The notes beneath the pieces are model-generated. The model worked only from the letters and a program-made list of their open reading frames with translations, was not told the DNA's origin and ran no database searches. This document shows, piece by piece, positions 1,164-11,151 of a DNA stretch of 64,000 bases; position 1 is the stretch's first letter; each line of letters starts with the position of its first letter. The position numbers and the translations under genes were made by a program. Origin of the DNA: Elusimicrobia bacterium GWA2_56_46 (GTDB lineage: Bacteria; Elusimicrobiota; Elusimicrobia; Elusimicrobiales; UBA9959); assembly GCA_001799575.1 (NCBI GenBank), contig MGTT01000028.1:143274-207273 (forward strand), written 5' to 3'.

Positions 1164-2330
1164 ATGGAAATCAATGAAACGCAGCGCAGTCTGGATGACG
1201 GGGAAGAGATGTCGATGGAAGAGCTTCTGAAAGCCGAGGCTGAGGTTTCCGATAAAATTTATTCCCGGGACATAGTCAAGGTCAAGGTCGTACAGGTCAC
1301 GGCGGAACATATCCTGGTTCATATAGGCGAGAAAAAGGAAGCCGTTATCCCGGTCGCGGATTTCCAGGGCGAGAAGCTGCCCGAGATCGGTGCCGAAGTC
1401 ATGGCGGTGCTGGAGCGCAAGGGCGGCGAGGGGAAGAGCACGATCCTGTCCCACCGGAAAGCCAGGGAAAAAATCGCCTGGCAGTGGGCGAAGAAAGTAT
1501 TCGAGGCCAAGGAGCGCGTGAAAGGCCGCGTCACCGACGCGGTGAAGGGAGGCTATATCGTGGATCTTTCCGGTCTCCGGGCCTTTATGCCTCTCTCCCT
1601 GTCGGAGATAGGCGGCGCGCACAGGCATTATCTGCCCTCCAACGCGAAGATAAGATTTTATATAACGGATCTTTCCGAAAAAGACCGGAAAATAGTGGTT
1701 TCGCGGCGGCAGGTGCTTGAGGAGGATGAAAAAGACCGCCGCGCCGAAGTTATGGGGGGGATCTCCTCCGGCAGCGTGGTGCGGGCGGTGGTTTCCAGGA
1801 TCGTCGCGGACGGTATGTTCGTCAGGTTTCAGGGCATAGAAGGCTTTGTGGCTCTGAGCGATGTGGACTGGAAGAACCCCGCCGAGTCGCTGAAATCCTA
1901 TAAACGCGGCCAGCGCGTGAAATGCAAAGTTCTGTCCATGGACAAGGCGACCGAGAAAGTGTCGTTCGGCCTTAAACAGCTTATTCCCAACCCGGTGGAT
2001 GTGCTCAAAAGAAAATTTCCTTACCGGTCCGTTCTGAAAGCGACGGTGATTTCCGTTTCCGAGGCGGGGGCCAGGGTGAAGATCTCCGAGGCTGTCGAGG
2101 GCTTTATCGCCGCGGAAGAATACGGCTATGCGGCCGCGCCCGTCGAGGGCCGGGAGCTCAGAGCCGTTCTTATCGGCATCGATCCCGCGGCCTACACGCT
2201 GGTGCTTTCCATCAGAAAACTGGAAGAGCAGGAAGATCGGAAAAAAGTGCAGCAGTACATGAAAGGCGCCCCGACCCTCACGCTGGGACAGATCCTGCTG
2301 GAAAACTCGGAGGATGAGGGTGAAGCGTAG
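1164..2330 (+). CDS. rpsA: 30S ribosomal protein S1-like protein, four S1 domains
   Basis: S1 proteins bind mRNA on the 30S subunit and help initiate translation. Four OB-fold S1 repeats can be read at about residues 30-100, 115-182, 200-268 and 285-352. Each shows the pattern of a beta strand with Gly-Tyr/Met-hydrophobic-Val then Gly-Phe-hydrophobic-Pro/Ala, for example GGYIVDLSGLRAFMPLS and GMFVRFQGIEGFVALS. At 388 aa it is shorter than the six-domain proteobacterial S1 (about 557 aa) and closer to the four-domain forms of other phyla. It lies 8 bases after plsC, and its stop TAG overlaps the GTG start of the next gene. A general S1-domain RNA-binding protein is possible, but the cmk neighbour supports rpsA. 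Confidence 0.85.
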   Translation: MEINETQRSLDDGEEMSMEELLKAEAEVSDKIYSRDIVKVKVVQVTAEHILVHIGEKKEAVIPVADFQGEKLPEIGAEVMAVLERKGGEGKSTILSHRKAREKIAWQWAKKVFEAKERVKGRVTDAVKGGYIVDLSGLRAFMPLSLSEIGGAHRHYLPSNAKIRFYITDLSEKDRKIVVSRRQVLEEDEKDRRAEVMGGISSGSVVRAVVSRIVADGMFVRFQGIEGFVALSDVDWKNPAESLKSYKRGQRVKCKVLSMDKATEKVSFGLKQLIPNPVDVLKRKFPYRSVLKATVISVSEAGARVKISEAVEGFIAAEEYGYAAAPVEGRELRAVLIGIDPAAYTLVLSIRKLEEQEDRKKVQQYMKGAPTLTLGQILLENSEDEGEA

Positions 2331-3367
2331 TGACTGAGTCCCCGCTGAAAGATCTTCTCCGTCATTCATTGGGAAAAATTACGTCCCGCGCTTTTGGGCG
2401 CTTTGACCCGCAAAGCGTCCAGGGCGGCGGCAGGCGCGCCGTTGAAAGCCGGGTTCTGTCCGGCTGGCTGGCGCCCGCGGGACTTCTCGCGGTTTTTATT
2501 TTTATCGCGGCTTACGCGCTTTTCACGAGGAACCGCGGCGCCGCCCCCGGGCTGTTTCCCCGTTCCAGCGCCGAGTTCATGGAGGCCGGCCGGCTGGATC
2601 GCAGGCTGGCCGGACTTGCGGAGCGCACCGGCAAAGACCCCAACGACATTCAGGCTTTTTTTGAATCCGGCCTTCTGAAATTTCAGAAAGGCGCCGCCAG
2701 CTATATAGAGGCCATTTCCGACCTTGAAACCGCCCGCTCCAGGGGGCTCGCCGATATCCGCACGTTCTACTACCTCGGACGTATGTACCAGGCCGAAGGC
2801 CTGTATGATTTCGCACTGGAGGAATACCGGCGTTTCCTCAATAACCGCCCCGGCGATTTTGAAGTCCGTATGCTGGCGGGGAAACTGCTTTTTTCCTTGG
2901 GACGATACGCCCAGGCGGTGAAAGAGTATGAGATCCTCAAGGACGCGCAGCCGGAGAACTTCCTTGTGCTGGAAAATCTGGCTTTGTCCCGCTGGAAGAA
3001 CAAACAGGATCCCCAGCCTGTGATCGACCTCCTTCGCGGTATGGGTGCGGAGGCGGTTTTCAGAGCCGGGTATGTTTCCGGCCTTGTGGCCTACGAAAGC
3101 AGGGACTATGCCGCGGCCGTCCCGCTCCTGGAGCGCGCCGCCGGGGAGAGTACGCGATACCCGGAATTTTCGGATCTGGCGGGAATCTACCGGATGCTCA
3201 GCGATTCCTACGTGAAATTGAAGTCCGAAGCGAAAGCGGTTTCCGCTCTTGGCGAGCTGCTGAAAATAAATCCGTCCGACGACGAGGCCCGCTCGCTGCT
3301 GGCAAGGCTTTCCAGGGCGCAGAGACGCGGGGCTCCAAAGGCGCAAAGCGGCAAAGGCGCAAAGTGA
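2330..3367 (+). CDS. Membrane-anchored tetratricopeptide repeat protein
   Basis: The GTG start overlaps the stop codon of the S1 gene. The 345-residue product has a short polar N-terminus, one transmembrane segment at about residues 47-66 and then TPR-type helix pairs to the end, with segments such as FYYLGRMYQAEGLYDFALEE and repeated Ala/Gly/Tyr spacing every 34 residues. This predicts an inner-membrane protein with a large TPR scaffold, probably periplasmic given the positive N-terminal side. No enzymatic motif is seen. The stop overlaps the start of the large barrel protein that follows, so the two are likely made together; TPR proteins often assist envelope assembly. Specific partner unknown. 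Confidence 0.75.
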   Translation: MTESPLKDLLRHSLGKITSRAFGRFDPQSVQGGGRRAVESRVLSGWLAPAGLLAVFIFIAAYALFTRNRGAAPGLFPRSSAEFMEAGRLDRRLAGLAERTGKDPNDIQAFFESGLLKFQKGAASYIEAISDLETARSRGLADIRTFYYLGRMYQAEGLYDFALEEYRRFLNNRPGDFEVRMLAGKLLFSLGRYAQAVKEYEILKDAQPENFLVLENLALSRWKNKQDPQPVIDLLRGMGAEAVFRAGYVSGLVAYESRDYAAAVPLLERAAGESTRYPEFSDLAGIYRMLSDSYVKLKSEAKAVSALGELLKINPSDDEARSLLARLSRAQRRGAPKAQSGKGAK

Positions 3368-6282
3368 GAACGCTCTTTACCTCATTGTTTCTTTGCCTCC
3401 TTATTTCCTCCTCTGTCCTTTCCGCCCAGGAAGAGAACAAGGTCATAGTCAGGAGTTTCGACTGGAATATTTACGCGACCGCCCATTTCGACATCCACTA
3501 TTACGCGGAGTCCAAACCCTGGCTGCCGCATGCGGCCCGGGTTCTGGAAAAAGCTTACAAAGAGGTCTCTTCCGATCTTAATCCCGCGCTGAATAAGCGG
3601 GTGCCGTTCTTTCTCTATGCCTCCATAAACGACATGGAGCAGAATAATATCGCGGACGTGGGCGACGGGGTGGGCGGCCTGACGGAGCCGTTCAAAGACC
3701 GGTTTATGGCCTGGTCGGACGGCTCGAAAGGCTGGCTCGAAGACGTTATCACTCATGAATTCGCGCACGAGGCGCAGTTCAGCGTCCTGATAGACGGGTT
3801 CTGGAAATCCGCCCGCATACTCAAGACTTTTGTTTATCCGCTCTGGATGATGGAGGGCATCGCGGAATACGAGACCGGCGGACACGATCTGGCCCTGGAA
3901 AGTATGTACGTGCGCGACGCCGCCCTTTCCCCCGGCGGCCTTATCCCGCTTATCCGTCTTACCCAGTTCGCGCATCTGAAGCCCCACCAGATCACGCTCG
4001 CCTATAAGACCGGGGCGCAGGCCATCAGGTTCCTCGCGCGGCAATACGGCCCGGACAAGCCGGCCCGCATGCTTGAGCTGTTTAAGACCCGCTACGAAGC
4101 CTCTTCCGTGCTTCTGCCGCTTATCGGCCTGGATCTGCCGGCTTTCGACGCCAAATTCAGGGAATATGCGCAGCTTAAATACCTGGCCGAGGCCCGGGAC
4201 GGGAATTTGCAGGAGCCCGCGCGGTTCGGCGGCCGTCTTACCGGTGAAAATGGGAGTATCCCTGAATTTAACATGAGTCCTGTATTGAGCCCGGATGGCG
4301 GCCGGCTGGCCTGGCTTTCCACCAGGGAGGGCCATCCGCCGGTGGTGATGATCCGGGAGCTCGCCTCCGGGAAGTCGTCGAAACTTACCGCATACGACGC
4401 CGGCGCGGAGAATATTCCGTACGGCAGATTTACCAAACCCTGGAAAAGCCTGGCCTGGTCCGGCGCCGGCGGATATCTGGCTTTTTCCGGCCAGAAGAAT
4501 CACCGGGAATATATTTTTCTGTACGATGTCCGGGCAAAGAAGACGATCCGCCTGGCCTTTCCGGATTTCGCCGAAGTCCGCCAGCCGGTTTTCTCTCCGG
4601 ATTCCTCCAGGATAATGTTTGTCGGTATGCGCGGCGGTTTCAACGACCTTTACGAACTCAGGCTTGACCCCGGGCTCCTTAAGGCGGGCGCCGCCCGCCT
4701 GGGGGATCTGAAGCGCCTTACAGAGAGCCCTGAGGATGAATCCTCGCCCGCGTATCTGGCCGACGGCTCCGGAGCCGTTTATTCCTGCGAAAGAGACGCC
4801 GCCGGCGGGCCCCGGCGGGAACTGTGCCGCGCGGATTTCGGCGGAGACAGTATGCCGCATACTGTCTCCCGGACGCTCGCGCGGATGCCCGGGGGAAATA
4901 TTTATGACCCCGTGGTTTCTCCGGACGGCCGGAAAATACTCTTTATTTCCGATGCGGAAGGACGTTACGAACTTTACGAACTGGAGAGCGGAACCGGGGA
5001 AATAACGAGGCTGACGCGGGTCATAGGGGGGAATTTCACTCCGGCTTATTCCCCCGACGGCGGAAAAATACTTTTTTCTTCTTTCCGCGGCGGGAACATG
5101 AATATCTATTCCGGCGCCCCGGCGGATTTTCTGCGCGAGCCGCTGGGCCCGCGCGAGACACAAGACATAAGACACAGGTCACATGAGGAGGAAACGCGGG
5201 GAGGCGCCCGGCCGGTCTCGGCGTCCACGGGGACTTTAGCGCCGCCGGAGGAAACCACCGGAACTTTTAAACCGTATAAATTCAAGGCCTCCACCGACCT
5301 GTTCTTTCCGGCTTTCATGTTCTCCTCTCCCGGCGGGCTTTTCTGGATGAATTACTGGCAGGCCTCCGACATGCTGGGAAACAACAACCTGAGCCTTTTT
5401 TTGAATTACAATTCGGGCAGCGAGTTCCTCAGTTACCAGGTGAATTACAGCTACGCCCGGTACCGGATGCCGATCTTTCTCCAGAGCGCGGGACTTACGT
5501 CGAAAAACAACATAAGCGATCTGGATCTGGAATTCGACAGGAAGGACGCGCGGCATATGCTGGGAACGGCCTATCCTTTCGACCGCCATAACCGCCTTGA
5601 ATTCTTTTTCATCCATAAGAATGTGACCGATAAGTTCGATTTTACGGGCGAGGCGGCGCATTCGCGCACAAGAGCGGCGCAGACTTCTTACGTCCGCGAC
5701 ACCGTAAGCGGGCTGTACCTGACCGCCGTGAGAGGATCCAGGACGGAACTAGCCTATACCAAGGCCGGGGAGGCCCTGGGAGGCACTGAGAGATATGACG
5801 CCTACGTGTTCCAGCGGCTCCAGTATGTGCCGCTTTCCAAGCGCAGTGCGCTTGTGGACAGGTTCCTGGCCGGGGAAAGTACCGGACGCGACAGGAAATC
5901 TTTCGGTTTCGGCGGTCTCGGCGGGGTGAGGGGGTTTTCCTCCGGGTCGGATCTGAACTACGCCTCAAGGGTCTTTATGAATAATTTCGAGGCCCGCGTG
6001 CCGCTGTTCAAAGACCTGAACTACTATATGTGGTTCATGTTTCCCGATTTTTATTTCAAGGCGATCTATGCCAAAGTGTTCTTTGATTCGGCCTACGGGT
6101 GGGATCGCGGATCCCAGCTGCGTTCGTTCAGAGCGTCCGACATCAGGAGTTCCGCCGGAGTGGGCGTGAATATCCACACATTCATCCTGCAGGCATTCCA
6201 GTTTATTTTAAGTTTCGATTACGCCGTTCGCACCCATGACGGGGGAAAAATATTCTATTTTTACCTGGGGCCGATGTTTTAG
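3364..6282 (+). CDS. Metallopeptidase-like / TolB-type propeller / Omp85-like barrel protein
   Basis: A 972-residue exported protein with three parts. Residues 1-21 form a signal peptide. Residues 35-260 look like a peptidase MA-type domain: the zinc motif HEFAH is at 131-135 and the third ligand region MMEGIAE at 162-168. Residues 290-600 carry four or more PD40/TolB propeller blades, each with the pattern SPDG/SPDS followed by hydrophobic-Phe-hydrophobic. Residues 640-972 are rich in amphipathic strands, contain VRGF near 855 (the signature loop of Omp85/BamA barrels) and end in Phe, as outer-membrane barrels do. GTG start, overlapping the stop of the TPR gene. Likely an outer-membrane protein with a periplasmic protease-like and propeller part; substrate unknown. 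The domain reading is firm, the biological role is inference. Confidence 0.8.
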   Translation: MRTLFTSLFLCLLISSSVLSAQEENKVIVRSFDWNIYATAHFDIHYYAESKPWLPHAARVLEKAYKEVSSDLNPALNKRVPFFLYASINDMEQNNIADVGDGVGGLTEPFKDRFMAWSDGSKGWLEDVITHEFAHEAQFSVLIDGFWKSARILKTFVYPLWMMEGIAEYETGGHDLALESMYVRDAALSPGGLIPLIRLTQFAHLKPHQITLAYKTGAQAIRFLARQYGPDKPARMLELFKTRYEASSVLLPLIGLDLPAFDAKFREYAQLKYLAEARDGNLQEPARFGGRLTGENGSIPEFNMSPVLSPDGGRLAWLSTREGHPPVVMIRELASGKSSKLTAYDAGAENIPYGRFTKPWKSLAWSGAGGYLAFSGQKNHREYIFLYDVRAKKTIRLAFPDFAEVRQPVFSPDSSRIMFVGMRGGFNDLYELRLDPGLLKAGAARLGDLKRLTESPEDESSPAYLADGSGAVYSCERDAAGGPRRELCRADFGGDSMPHTVSRTLARMPGGNIYDPVVSPDGRKILFISDAEGRYELYELESGTGEITRLTRVIGGNFTPAYSPDGGKILFSSFRGGNMNIYSGAPADFLREPLGPRETQDIRHRSHEEETRGGARPVSASTGTLAPPEETTGTFKPYKFKASTDLFFPAFMFSSPGGLFWMNYWQASDMLGNNNLSLFLNYNSGSEFLSYQVNYSYARYRMPIFLQSAGLTSKNNISDLDLEFDRKDARHMLGTAYPFDRHNRLEFFFIHKNVTDKFDFTGEAAHSRTRAAQTSYVRDTVSGLYLTAVRGSRTELAYTKAGEALGGTERYDAYVFQRLQYVPLSKRSALVDRFLAGESTGRDRKSFGFGGLGGVRGFSSGSDLNYASRVFMNNFEARVPLFKDLNYYMWFMFPDFYFKAIYAKVFFDSAYGWDRGSQLRSFRASDIRSSAGVGVNIHTFILQAFQFILSFDYAVRTHDGGKIFYFYLGPMF

Positions 6283-6300: not shown

Positions 6301-6573
6301 ATGTCCAGAAAAAACAAAAATAAGCTTTACGGACACCAGAAAGCGCCGGCCCGGGATCCAAAACCGCCGGCCGCCCCCCCAATTACAGGCGCGGAGGAGG
6401 GGGGGATAAGCAAAAAAGGCGTTATGATCCTGTCGCTGGCCGTTTTGCTCATTGCGGCTGGGTACGTTCTCCTGGGAAAGGTTGACCCTGCCGGATCCAA
6501 TATCTATTCGAACCTCGCTCCGGCGGCTCTTTTGTCCGGCTACCTGCTGGTGTTCCTTGGGTTAAGAGGCTGA
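6301..6573 (+). CDS. Small two-helix membrane protein
   Basis: A 90-residue protein with a Lys/Pro-rich cytoplasmic N-terminus (1-37) and two hydrophobic helices at about 40-58 and 70-88, separated by a short loop containing DPAGSNIYSN. The layout resembles the small membrane proteins called DUF3098 in Bacteroidota (two helices separated by a polar Asn-containing loop), but that is only a resemblance by eye. A purine-rich AGGGGG lies about 14 bases before the ATG. It is 18 bases behind the barrel-protein gene on the same strand, so it is probably the last gene of this cluster. Function unknown. Confidence 0.6.
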   Translation: MSRKNKNKLYGHQKAPARDPKPPAAPPITGAEEGGISKKGVMILSLAVLLIAAGYVLLGKVDPAGSNIYSNLAPAALLSGYLLVFLGLRG

Positions 6574-7616: not shown

Positions 7617-8126
7617 TTAATCATTAGGCGCCACTTTCTTCATCGCCGTATAGGCCCTTTCCAGGCCTTTCTGGGTTATCCGGTAGGTTCGGTTTCTCTT
7701 GGTTCCGGAGGCTGTGGCGCGGCCCTCCCGGATCTCTTTTGAGAGCAGTCTGTCCAGTCTGTCCGGTTCGTAGCCTGATGATTTCAGCGCTTTTGAGAGC
7801 GTTATGGCGCTTAGGTCTTCTTTCCTGCTCAATGCTCTGCTGGCGGCCATCAGGATCAGCGCCGCTTCCGCGGCGCCTATTTCCGGCGATTTAAACCGGA
7901 GTCTCAGGAGACCGCCTTTGTCGGTTATTGTTTTGTCCCAGAAGCCGGTTAAACGATCTTCCGCGTCCGCCGCTCCGCCGGTCGCAGGCCGAAAGCCAGG
8001 CTGCGCGCTGCCGGGCGCCAGACCCGCCAGGAAGCTGTTTTTCTCGGCGAGTATGAATTCCGCGGTTCCTTCGGCCTCAAACTCGGCCCCGGAAGGGTCT
8101 TTCAGCCTTAGTTTGTAATTGGTCAT
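7617..8126 (-). CDS. Uncharacterised protein with C-terminal winged-helix-like part
   Basis: A 169-residue soluble protein not recognised as a named family. The C-terminal 70 residues (about 95-165) read like a winged helix: a helix with SALRALSRKEDLS-like spacing, a recognition-helix segment with GYEPDRLDRLLSKEI, a basic wing with TKRNRTYRIT, then a final helix KGLERAYTAMKKV. The N-terminal part resembles a small beta domain. The start is supported by GGAGGG six bases upstream. The upstream region has repeated TATGTCA elements and the palindrome CAACATGTTG, which fit a DNA-binding autoregulator. A repeat lies just behind the stop. Function as a regulator is inference. Confidence 0.65.
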   Translation of the reverse strand: MTNYKLRLKDPSGAEFEAEGTAEFILAEKNSFLAGLAPGSAQPGFRPATGGAADAEDRLTGFWDKTITDKGGLLRLRFKSPEIGAAEAALILMAASRALSRKEDLSAITLSKALKSSGYEPDRLDRLLSKEIREGRATASGTKRNRTYRITQKGLERAYTAMKKVAPND

Positions 8127-8475: not shown

Positions 8476-9810
8476 TCAGAACCTGGCTGTGAGGCTCAGG
8501 GAGACCAGTTTTATGGGGTTGGTCTGGGGGTAGAGGCCCAGCGGGTTGAAAACGGCGTAAACGGCCTTTAAGCGCAGACTGTCGCCCATAGGGTAGGCGG
8601 CTTTCAGATCCCATTCGCTGCCGATCTGCGTTGAGGTTTTATTGATATTCTGCGCGGCCTTGAACTTAAACAGGTCAAAAGAGAGGATCAGTTTTTTGTA
8701 AGGCATATCCGCGCCGATATTGATAATGTTCAGGCCTGAAACGCCGTTAGGCAGGCCGTTGGCGGTGCCGGAGGTCTGGATCATATCGTAAAGGGTCGCG
8801 CCGGCTATCTCGCCGAAGCCGTCGCGCTCTATGCCTTTGAACCTGTGGCCGAAAGTGGGCATGAAAGCTTTGTCTTTCGCGCCCACGGGCCCGGAATTGC
8901 CGGAAGATTTGCCGTAGGCCATACGCATCCTGGACGCGCCGAAAAAGCTGATTTCCTGGCTCCAGACGCCCTTGAGCAGGAAAGCGTAGCCGTCGTAGGC
9001 CACTTTCCCCCCCTTTGCCGGCTTCTCCGAGGAGCCCCGCTGGATTACGAACTCCCCGTCGAAGTTGAGCTGATTGTAGCTCATGAAGTATCTGAGCCCG
9101 GTGAATTTTTTTGTCCTGGAAACCGAGTCGTGCCCCGGTTCCGTTCTTGGCTGCGCGTCCTGTTCCCAGAAGTGGTAGAGGTGCCAGAGACCCTCGCTCG
9201 AAGGATAGTAGATCCCGCCGCCCGTGACTTTTACGTAATCCGTTCCCGCGTAGGGCCGGAAGTAAAAAAATTCTCCCTTAACATTGCGCACCATCTTTTC
9301 CATGTCCACGCGCGCGCCCGGCAGGCCCAGGCCGTCGTCCGAAAGCGTTATTCCCTGGCCCAGAGTGAAAGCCTGGCGGCCGAGCGTGGCCGTAGTCCTC
9401 GGATCCAGGAACTTGTAGATCCGTATATAAGCTTCTTTCGTGAAAGGCGAGCCGTTGACGTTAGGGTAGCGGTTTATCGCGTCGGAGAACTGCGCCGCCG
9501 TCACCGTATTGGTGGAGGCTCCCGTGCCCACGCTGTTCAGGACTATGCCGACGTCCATCGAAGAGTTGTCGGTTTTCTCAAGTTTGATGTTCTTGATTAT
9601 GAAGCCCAGCGTGGCGTTTTCGGTGTAGACCGCCTGGCCCCGGCGCTGGTCGCCGGTAAGGAGGCCGGTATAATTGGCGGCCTTGATGTCCACGTTAGAG
9701 GAAAGATCCAGCTTGGTGGCATTGGCGGCCGCCGGGAGCAAAGCGAGAAGCGCCGCCGCAACGAATAGCGAACAGCGAGCAGCGAATAGCAGATAACGCG
9801 GGTTACTCAT
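8476..9810 (-). CDS. Outer-membrane beta-barrel protein (alginate-export-like)
   Basis: A 444-residue exported protein: a hydrophobic signal peptide (about 8-31, cleavage near ANA-TK), then alternating amphipathic strands throughout and a terminal Phe (LTARF), the hallmark of outer-membrane barrels. Segments such as IYKFLDPRTTATLGRQAFTL and the aromatic strand ends fit the alginate-export/porin-like superfamily that forms 16- to 18-strand channels, but substrate cannot be read. It lies behind the second porin-like gene, separated by a strong terminator at 9834-9861, so it has its own transcript. Part of the signal-peptide coding DNA (9760-9800) is a run of similar short units, apparently a repeat captured into the leader. 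Confidence 0.75.
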   Translation of the reverse strand: MSNPRYLLFAARCSLFVAAALLALLPAAANATKLDLSSNVDIKAANYTGLLTGDQRRGQAVYTENATLGFIIKNIKLEKTDNSSMDVGIVLNSVGTGASTNTVTAAQFSDAINRYPNVNGSPFTKEAYIRIYKFLDPRTTATLGRQAFTLGQGITLSDDGLGLPGARVDMEKMVRNVKGEFFYFRPYAGTDYVKVTGGGIYYPSSEGLWHLYHFWEQDAQPRTEPGHDSVSRTKKFTGLRYFMSYNQLNFDGEFVIQRGSSEKPAKGGKVAYDGYAFLLKGVWSQEISFFGASRMRMAYGKSSGNSGPVGAKDKAFMPTFGHRFKGIERDGFGEIAGATLYDMIQTSGTANGLPNGVSGLNIINIGADMPYKKLILSFDLFKFKAAQNINKTSTQIGSEWDLKAAYPMGDSLRLKAVYAVFNPLGLYPQTNPIKLVSLSLTARF

Positions 9811-9888: not shown

Positions 9889-11151
9889 TTAGAACTTGAC
9901 GCTCGCGTAGAGGATCATGAGGTTGACTGCGTCATGTTTGGTGGCGATGGCAATGTCCTTATCGGGCATAAACATCGCGTAGGCGGCCTGAATGCTGAGG
10001 TTATCGGAGTGCGCCCAGGTGGCGGTCATGTCCAGCTCATTCCCGATGTCCTTGGCGGTGCCGACTTTCTCGGTATATTTCAGGTTCACGTACTTGGCGG
10101 TTACGTTGAGCTTGGAAAGATCCTTGGGCATGGCTTTCAAGGACGCGTTCCAGCAGGTCAGGTTGTCAAGGCTGGTGAACTTGCTGGCAACGCCGGCGCC
10201 ATAACCGTTAGCGCTGACGATGATGCCGGGCCTGTAGTGCGAGTTGATGGCTTTGAAGCCTTCATTTTTGCTGGCGCTGGCTTTATCGCCGGTGCCGCGC
10301 GCGAATTCTCCGGAAGCTTCCAGATTGCCGAGGCCCAGGCCGAAGTTGTACTTCGCGTTGAATTTCATGGCATTGCCATTGTAATCAACGGCTGTGGCTG
10401 CGGTCCTGTTGGAGCCTTTGTTCATGGCGTATTCCGCAGCGTAGGTGACGTCCATGTATTTGCCTTCGGCTTTAACGCCGGCGACAATCAGCCTGTTCTC
10501 AAGCGTCGCAACGGTGTTCCTGTCGTCGCTGCGATAGATATAGGCCGTGGGTTTGACGATCTCGGAATAATCGTAGCTCGCGGTCAAACCGGAGATGTCT
10601 TTGTCGGTCAGCGTGGTCGTAAGACCTTCATTGTATTTGGCGGAAAGACCGGTGACCACCAGTTTGTCTTTTTTCCATATACCGGTCCAGCCTTCCAGCG
10701 AGGCGGCGGTCATAATGCGCGTGGTCCAGCCGCTGGGGCCGTAATATATTATGATATCGCCGGTTTTTCCGTAGAACTGTTTGCCGACTTTATGGTCGAT
10801 GCCGAACACGTTCTTGAGGTTCAGATAAGCCTCATAGAATTTGAAGGCGTCTATGGTTCCGCCGGCGACTGTCTGCTGGACGGTTGAATCATACTGCCTG
10901 TCGCACTTTATCGCCGTTACTCCGGCGCTGGCGTCTTCGTTCAGGTCGAAGCTTGCGCCCAACGAGACGCGGGACCTTGTGTCGCTGAAGCTGTCGTTCG
11001 GTGATTTTTTCTTATCGAAGGTAACAGCGTTCTGTTCCGAGAAACTAAGCACTTCCACTTTGCCGTCGTACTTGAAGTTCTTGAGCAGTTCGGCGCTTGC
11101 CATTGAAGAGGCAAACGCGACCACCGCAAGCATTCCTATTACTTTTTTCAT
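9889..11151 (-). CDS. Porin-like outer-membrane protein
   Basis: A 420-residue exported barrel protein. Signal peptide 1-20 (MKKVIGMLAVVAFASSMASA) followed by amphipathic beta strands across the whole length and a C-terminal Phe (ASVKF). The Lys-rich, Ala/Gly-rich strands and absence of other domains point to a general or specific porin. It has an AGGAGG ribosome-binding site seven bases before ATG, a strong promoter about 250 bases upstream and a strong terminator behind it, all signs of a highly expressed single gene. pstS follows upstream, so a role in phosphate uptake (as for OprO/OprP porins) is a reasonable guess but not shown by sequence. Confidence 0.8.
   Translation of the reverse strand: MKKVIGMLAVVAFASSMASAELLKNFKYDGKVEVLSFSEQNAVTFDKKKSPNDSFSDTRSRVSLGASFDLNEDASAGVTAIKCDRQYDSTVQQTVAGGTIDAFKFYEAYLNLKNVFGIDHKVGKQFYGKTGDIIIYYGPSGWTTRIMTAASLEGWTGIWKKDKLVVTGLSAKYNEGLTTTLTDKDISGLTASYDYSEIVKPTAYIYRSDDRNTVATLENRLIVAGVKAEGKYMDVTYAAEYAMNKGSNRTAATAVDYNGNAMKFNAKYNFGLGLGNLEASGEFARGTGDKASASKNEGFKAINSHYRPGIIVSANGYGAGVASKFTSLDNLTCWNASLKAMPKDLSKLNVTAKYVNLKYTEKVGTAKDIGNELDMTATWAHSDNLSIQAAYAMFMPDKDIAIATKHDAVNLMILYASVKF

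Follow-up and report, generated by a model that had tools for sequence, protein, structure and literature searches.

We analysed a 64,000-nucleotide window of contig MGTT01000028.1 from Elusimicrobia bacterium GWA2_56_46 and found that one gene within it (positions 3364-6282, plus strand) encodes a gluzincin metallopeptidase, a TolB-like beta-propeller and an Omp85-type barrel in a single exported-type polypeptide of 972 amino acids. All features of this gene and of its upstream neighbors lie on the plus strand. The function that we favor, which in our judgment has even chances of being correct, is that of a zinc endopeptidase anchored in the outer membrane, with its catalytic and propeller domains facing the periplasm, that would clip misfolded or precursor envelope proteins. 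With a conserved, apparently intact peptidase tied by a TolB-type propeller to a POTRA-less barrel, it is a tangible example on which a physical coupling between proteolysis and an outer-membrane barrel can be tested. The original prediction, made from the letters of the sequence, had placed these three parts in one protein, and profile searches, a structural model and fold searches confirmed this.

The gene is read from a GTG start as one open reading frame (ORF) of 972 codons, and every motif named in the prediction is present in its translation: HEFAH (residues 131-135), GIAE within the stretch EGIAE (164-168), SPDG-type propeller repeats, VRGF (855-858) and a C-terminal Phe. Chance matching of these motifs was ruled out by the profile scores, the invariance of the residues and the fold matches described below. 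We also ruled out an artificial fusion of two genes, as the long matches listed for relatives each run in a single frame with no internal stops. In some relatives the match is split, and those with visible contig ends either sit at contig ends or lie in one long frame. A signal peptide is suggested for residues 1-22 (3364-3429) by the sequence, a hydropathy scan and a helix at residues 2-19 of the AlphaFold2 model. The same crude scan found a hydrophobic stretch ahead of residue 35 in 64 of 66 homologous sequences, and the protein is probably exported. The full-length model, built with AlphaFold2 from a 39-row alignment, reached a mean predicted local distance difference test (pLDDT) score of 80.7 and a predicted template modeling (pTM) score of 0.81, and it shows an N-terminal domain of mixed structure, then six blades and a set of 16 strands.

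The N-terminal domain (residues 23-285, 3430-4218) was assigned to the gluzincins by a Pfam profile, a separate model and fold matches. Peptidase_MA_2 (PF13485) matched with an E value of 1.2e-6, scoring 28.9 bits for the whole protein and 32.4 bits for the domain alone against a cut-off of 32.4, and with E limited to 0.1 it was found in every one of 39 homologues that were aligned. Modeled alone from 51 sequences, the domain reached a pLDDT of 89.1. We compared folds with VIA-align against the PDB, and among the matches listed the nearest was the Grimontia collagenase of family M9 (Z 18.2, root-mean-square deviation (rmsd) 3.3, 233 residues aligned), followed by ColH (Z 17.2), lugdulysin of family M30 (Z 16.8) and M1 enzymes (Z about 13-14). 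A sequence profile independently matched the domain to ColG (E 0.0033) and brought three motifs into register: GGLTE (residues 104-108, 3673-3687) with the GGLYIE stretch of ColG, HEFAH (3754-3768) with its HExxH, and EGIAE (3853-3867) with its EGTAE. An HExxH motif with a downstream Glu in a fold of the M1/M9/M30 type places the domain among the gluzincins of clan MA. The likeness to the M9 collagenases ColG, ColH and the Grimontia enzyme extends to fold (Z up to 18.2), GG motif, HExxH and EGxAE, whereas identity is just 12-16% in the structural alignments and the window protein lacks the M9 profile PF01752 at E up to 1, so that collagen cleavage is not implied. PF01752 was found in two of the 39 homologues at E up to 0.1, with a best value of 3.6e-4.

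If the peptidase were degenerate, its active-site residues should vary among relatives. We collected 118 loci, left out 13 shorter matches and reduced the 105 near full-length proteins to 65 distinct sequences, which together with the window protein gave a set of 66. H131, E132, H135 and E164 were invariant in all 66, as were G104, G105, E108, G165 and H204, while E168 was kept in 59 and varied in seven. E164 is the probable third zinc ligand, judging from the fold family and the alignment to ColG. The conservation of zinc ligands that the original prediction had proposed to check was therefore found, together with that of the catalytic Glu (E132). On sequence grounds an inactive enzyme is unlikely, and the peptidase is plausibly catalytically intact.

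The domain that follows is a six-bladed propeller of the TolB type (residues 286-591, 4219-5136), the six blades being our own grouping of the model strands. PD40 repeats matched in five stretches (E 5.1e-33) and, under the same E limit of 0.1, occurred in 38 of the 39 aligned homologues. Superposed on TolB, the propeller gave Z 27.1 and rmsd 2.2 over 243 aligned residues. We rejected the idea that the protein is TolB itself: despite the common propeller it scored 102.1 bits with TIGR02800, well under the equivalog cut-off of 343.15, and the TolB N-terminal domain (PF04052) was not listed in its Pfam scan. A separate TolB-like gene lies elsewhere in the same genome.

A linker (residues 592-633, 5137-5262), delimited by pLDDT, conservation and Pfam, leads into the C-terminal barrel (5263-6279; residues 642-972), whose 16 strands lie within residues 642-969 and which ends in Phe. 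Barrel topology, another check that had been proposed, was thus predicted, and among the fold matches listed the closest were TamA (Z 23.2), BamA (Z 22.7-22.8) and chains of the mitochondrial SAM complex (about 22). Conservation and the model strands place the VRGF motif (5926-5937) in loop 6, which joins strands 11 and 12. R856 was invariant in 66 of 66 sequences, G857 was kept in 64, and position 858 was Phe or Tyr in 59; E876, R878 and D908 were the other invariant barrel residues. A 16-stranded barrel of BamA/TamA/Sam50 fold carrying VRGF/Y in loop 6 makes the protein a member of the Omp85 superfamily, and the lack of any detected POTRA domain before the barrel sets it outside the POTRA-bearing group of BamA, TamA and PlpD. 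We searched 61 genomes with PF01103 (Omp85) at E up to 1e-5; 33 of them hold an orthologue, and in three of these 33 (G002, 2.3e-10; G021, 2.3e-8; G029, 6.6e-8) the orthologous C-terminus passed the curated cut-off. Among the 39 aligned homologues, Omp85 was matched in two at E up to 0.1. G002 belongs to the same genus as the window. The barrel assignment rests on these orthologue matches and on structure. An invariant PDFYFK stretch (6043-6060, residues 894-899) at the start of strand 13 lies in a turn that is modeled with low confidence and predicted to face the periplasm, where it could possibly contact the peptidase or the propeller.

We next consider how the domains are arranged across the outer membrane. 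The pTM of 0.81 suggests that the three domains pack against one another; docking was judged from this score and from alignment ranges only. In the VIA-align ranges, alignments to TamA and BamA reach from the barrel into the N-terminal domain of the model: residues 30-972, for example, were laid on TamA 206-579 with 326 residues aligned, as compared with 284 for the barrel-only TamA match. Because these alignments extend into it, the N-terminal domain appears to sit on the POTRA side, that is the periplasmic side. PlpD, a patatin-like Omp85 protein and the best studied among fusions of an enzyme to Omp85, likewise carries an N-terminal enzyme on its barrel, and this enzyme domain stays periplasmic (PMC11116518). 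By analogy with PlpD, a periplasm-facing placement is most likely. The comparison is one of layout, since PlpD has a patatin lipase and one POTRA in the same account (PMC11116518), whereas the window protein has a gluzincin peptidase in place of the patatin-like lipase domain that marks type Vd, a propeller, and no detected POTRA. In the terms of the original prediction, structure prediction, fold searches and conservation lend good support to a protease and a TolB-like propeller carried on an Omp85 barrel and hence predicted to lie at the outer membrane.

If the barrel instead moved its own peptidase and propeller across the outer membrane, the protein would be a surface-displayed protease for digesting polymers or prey. 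Self-translocation of this type Vd-like kind was first proposed for PlpD. The layout of an N-terminal enzyme on an Omp85 barrel would suit this explanation, as would a peptidase whose nearest relatives, the collagenases and lugdulysin, are secreted enzymes, the occurrence of a barrel-less peptidase-propeller relative in Salinibacter ruber, and the lack of the full-length gene in two families with small genomes, as far as their genomes are listed. Set against these points, the PlpD enzyme ends up periplasmic (PMC11116518), a folded six-bladed propeller would make a poor passenger, the model appears to place the N-terminal domain on the POTRA side, and the gene order is that of a housekeeping gene. 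We therefore regard surface display as unlikely. The original suggestion of a secretion device gained no positive evidence: no POTRA was detected, no partner exoprotein was recognized among the Pfam-scanned neighbors, and the PlpD precedent is periplasmic (PMC11116518).

The outer-membrane endopeptidase that we favor could operate as follows. Insertion of the barrel by the beta-barrel assembly machinery (BAM) pathway would hold the enzyme to the inner face of the outer membrane. The propeller would fill the place taken by POTRA or BamB-like modules in other Omp85 proteins; as an adaptor or a lid, it may let unfolded chains through to the zinc site. Envelope proteins that are misfolded or still precursors would then be clipped by the protease, in a clean-up of the BepA or DegP kind at this membrane. 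BepA is a soluble periplasmic M48 metallopeptidase with tetratricopeptide repeats (TPR) in cis that serves outer-membrane protein quality control; the likeness lies in the idea of a periplasmic metallopeptidase for that task, and BepA differs in its peptidase family, its solubility and its TPR in cis. We infer the substrate and the role, quality control or processing, from such comparisons, and the quality-control role named in the original prediction is a plausible candidate.

The same barrel evidence bears on a different proposal, in which the protein is an accessory factor for the assembly of outer-membrane proteins: the barrel would insert a subset of proteins in the manner of BamA or TamA, with the propeller as a BamB-like platform and the peptidase as a proofreading module. 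This is consistent with a 16-stranded barrel that bears the VRGF loop 6 motif and lies close to TamA, BamA and the SAM complex chains, and with the description of WD40-Omp85 proteins as resembling a BamA-BamB fusion in the available text of Heinz & Lithgow 2014 (PMC4104836). Against it, no POTRA was detected in the 39 members by Pfam or in the model. Another Omp85 protein of the genome, whose separate 853-aa frame matches PF01103 over the full length, led us to reject the notion that the window protein is the genome's main Omp85. The full-length three-domain protein is absent from 24 genomes of one family (f2) that have an Omp85 gene. On balance we find an assembly role improbable. A bolder proposal is a self-sufficient, one-chain proofreading machine, in which the barrel would receive nascent outer-membrane proteins, the TolB-like propeller would read their state and the collagenase-type zinc protease would destroy those that stall. 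We think this quite improbable; if true, a BamA-like insertase with a protease as part of its own chain would be widespread in Elusimicrobiota, would occur in a second small phylum and would recur in two or more divergent paralogues.

A scan of named genomes with two peptide patterns gave 75 loci; the best 80 of 85 relatives were mostly metagenome-assembled genomes (MAGs) labeled Elusimicrobia or Elusimicrobiota, with some labeled 'bacterium' and one 'Clostridia bacterium' (L113), and the nearest among these 80 was MGVA01000038.1, an Elusimicrobia bacterium. When 294 genomes of the phylum were searched with a profile, 244 gave a match at 1e-10; the weak matches with listed ranges fall for the most part on the propeller, as expected of a TolB gene. 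The best match was below 1e-40 in 97 of the 294 by hand count, spread over many families, with 40 of the 46 listed genomes of family f1 among them. Families f2 (0 of 79 listed genomes) and f15 (0 of 56) fall outside the 97; their genomes are mostly small and the families may be host-associated. Thirty phylum genomes with no match have no family listing. All three genomes examined from the second small phylum (G307-G309) have the protein. Genomes beyond Elusimicrobiota and this second phylum were covered only by the two-pattern scan and by a plasmid search, in which 18 of 72,556 records matched, none over more than 80% of the query.

We tested horizontal acquisition by comparing pairwise distances with those of the neighboring gene for an S1-domain protein. 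For the 55 of the 75 loci at which each of the two genes had a long match, the other 20 being set aside, and using best-matching segments only, the distances tracked those of S1 with a rho of 0.92, a value reached in 0 of 999 permutations, and the mean distance was 0.480 as against 0.483 for S1, so that conservation is about equal to that of this neighbor. The tracking favors vertical descent in this sample, and the gene appears to be vertically inherited. Since it also follows the growth genes cmk-plsC-S1-TPR, we regard it as a housekeeping-like gene that is dispensable in some lineages, and not as a weapon of virulence or competition. A nutrient-processing pore, in which the barrel would be a passive channel and the protease would trim imported peptides, fits the absence from the listed genomes of the two small-genome families and a fold common to degradative collagenases. 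Omp85 barrels, however, are usually closed by loop 6, the gene stands after cmk, plsC and S1, and the Pfam-named neighbors in the window, where no wider transporter search was made, are not peptide transporters. We consider such a pore very unlikely.

Several observations weigh against an outer-membrane quality-control endopeptidase. The window's own barrel has no PF01103 match, and its profile finds no convincing PDB sequence. No POTRA occurs among the Pfam families listed for the 39 members, and the linker is without fold in the model: it is disordered, with pLDDT below 50 for residues 597-630 and a mean column conservation of 0.19. No BAM or Tol gene was recognized among the Pfam-scanned neighbors in the window. 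A strict partnership with the TPR gene directly upstream was not upheld, as that gene went undetected at 15 of 64 loci, and in five genomes (G045, G151, G170, G229 and G121; L228-L231 and L236) it is kept after S1 with no barrel protein beside it. Finally, all 24 f2 genomes searched with PF01103 gave a match of the full-length type, yet none has the full-length protein. The gene can thus be dispensed with and is not essential for either assembly or quality control.

We compared the architecture with Omp85 proteins described previously. Ten subfamilies were defined by Heinz & Lithgow 2014, including WD40-Omp85 with a TolB-like propeller (PMC4104836, available text). By layout, the only level at which they were compared, the window protein has the WD40-Omp85 arrangement of a propeller N-terminal to a POTRA-less barrel, and differs in the intact gluzincin before the propeller, none being mentioned for the subfamily in the accessible portion of that paper (PMC4104836). 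Their 'Metallo' subfamily likewise couples a so-called metalloprotease domain to an Omp85 barrel, but that domain is PF00149 and the available text mentions no propeller (PMC4104836). A later paper calls the characterization of Omp85 subfamilies that are WD40-like or bear an enzyme incomplete (PMC11116518). Propeller-Omp85 fusions are already known, and by layout comparison with WD40-Omp85 the peptidase domain appears as an addition; our searches of the openly licensed PubMed Central literature found no description of the combination of peptidase, propeller and Omp85 barrel. For part of the WD40-Omp85 class, the gluzincin may be the domain that defines function. PF00149 we take to be the calcineurin-like phosphoesterase family, which contains no peptidase, and if this is so the 'Metallo' class may not be proteases at all.

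Beside the orthologue, divergent paralogues were found in three genomes: 1194 aa in G286 (L240:2416-5997), 1221 aa in G216 (L241:1792-5454) and 1040 aa in G200 (L242:1475-4594). All three share HExxH with an EGxAE further downstream, as well as PD40 repeats and either RGY or RGF. The paralogues of G286 and G200 passed the Omp85 cut-off, whereas that of G216 had no match and its barrel rests on the motif and a terminal Phe. Their peptidase families fell under the Pfam cut-offs (BSP in G286, Peptidase_MA_2 in G200) or were unmatched (G216). Two divergent paralogues thus seem to repeat the layout, and perhaps the third does also. In G121 we noted a 976-aa protein (L243:1666-4593) with HExxH and a PD40 propeller and no detected Omp85, possibly a further variant. 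Salinibacter ruber WP_118831798.1 (L153) also combines a BSP-like peptidase with a PD40 propeller (25.6% identity over residues 11-556), but it has 633 aa, no Pfam-matched barrel and a BSP-like score of 21.7 bits, below the cut-off of 23.8. Judged by these divergent paralogues, the G121 protein and the Salinibacter ruber protein, the peptidase-propeller module is older and broader than the window gene. A Salinibacter plasmid stretch (L238) encodes a 339-aa protein annotated 'DPP IV N-terminal domain-containing'.

Gene context was read at the 64 of the 75 named-genome loci that include the N-terminus together with 3 kb or more of upstream sequence. The order cmk-plsC-S1-(TPR) is conserved ahead of the barrel gene. 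In the window, cytidylate kinase (cmk; 53-553, PF02224; upstream at 61 of 64 loci) matched profile positions 57-208 only, so its start may lie outside the window; it is followed by a PlsC-type acyltransferase (532-1155, PF01553; 57 of 64), a protein with an S1 domain of the ribosomal protein S1 type (1164-2330, PF00575; 62 of 64) and a TPR-repeat protein (2330-3367; 49 of 64). The TPR protein has one hydrophobic segment (about residues 47-66) and is probably held in the inner membrane with its TPRs in the periplasm. Its TGA stop overlaps the GTG start of the barrel gene, and from this overlap the two genes are likely to be translationally coupled; an AAAGG stretch 6 bases 5' of the GTG could serve as a weak ribosome-binding site. 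Across the loci, the link between the TPR gene and the barrel gene is suggestive only. Since the TPR gene is kept in five genomes with no adjoining barrel protein, it probably has a separate role of its own. At the loci of the second phylum (L113-L115) cmk, plsC and S1 lie upstream and the TPR gene was not detected, and the f2 loci that were read keep cmk-plsC-S1, with neither the TPR nor the barrel protein in the stretch read. The contigs of G009, G019 and G047 break off at the TPR gene or shortly beyond it, and absence of the barrel protein there may be an effect of assembly.

Directly 3' of the barrel gene, positions 6301-6573 (plus strand) encode a 90-residue protein with a probable membrane-spanning segment, and frames weakly similar to it lie downstream in several relatives. 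Further downstream, on the minus strand, are a 169-aa protein with no Pfam match (7617-8126), a 444-aa protein with a weak Porin_4 hint only (8476-9810, E 0.9) and an Alginate_exp protein (9889-11151, 4.4e-7). The order of these three genes is kept in many relatives.

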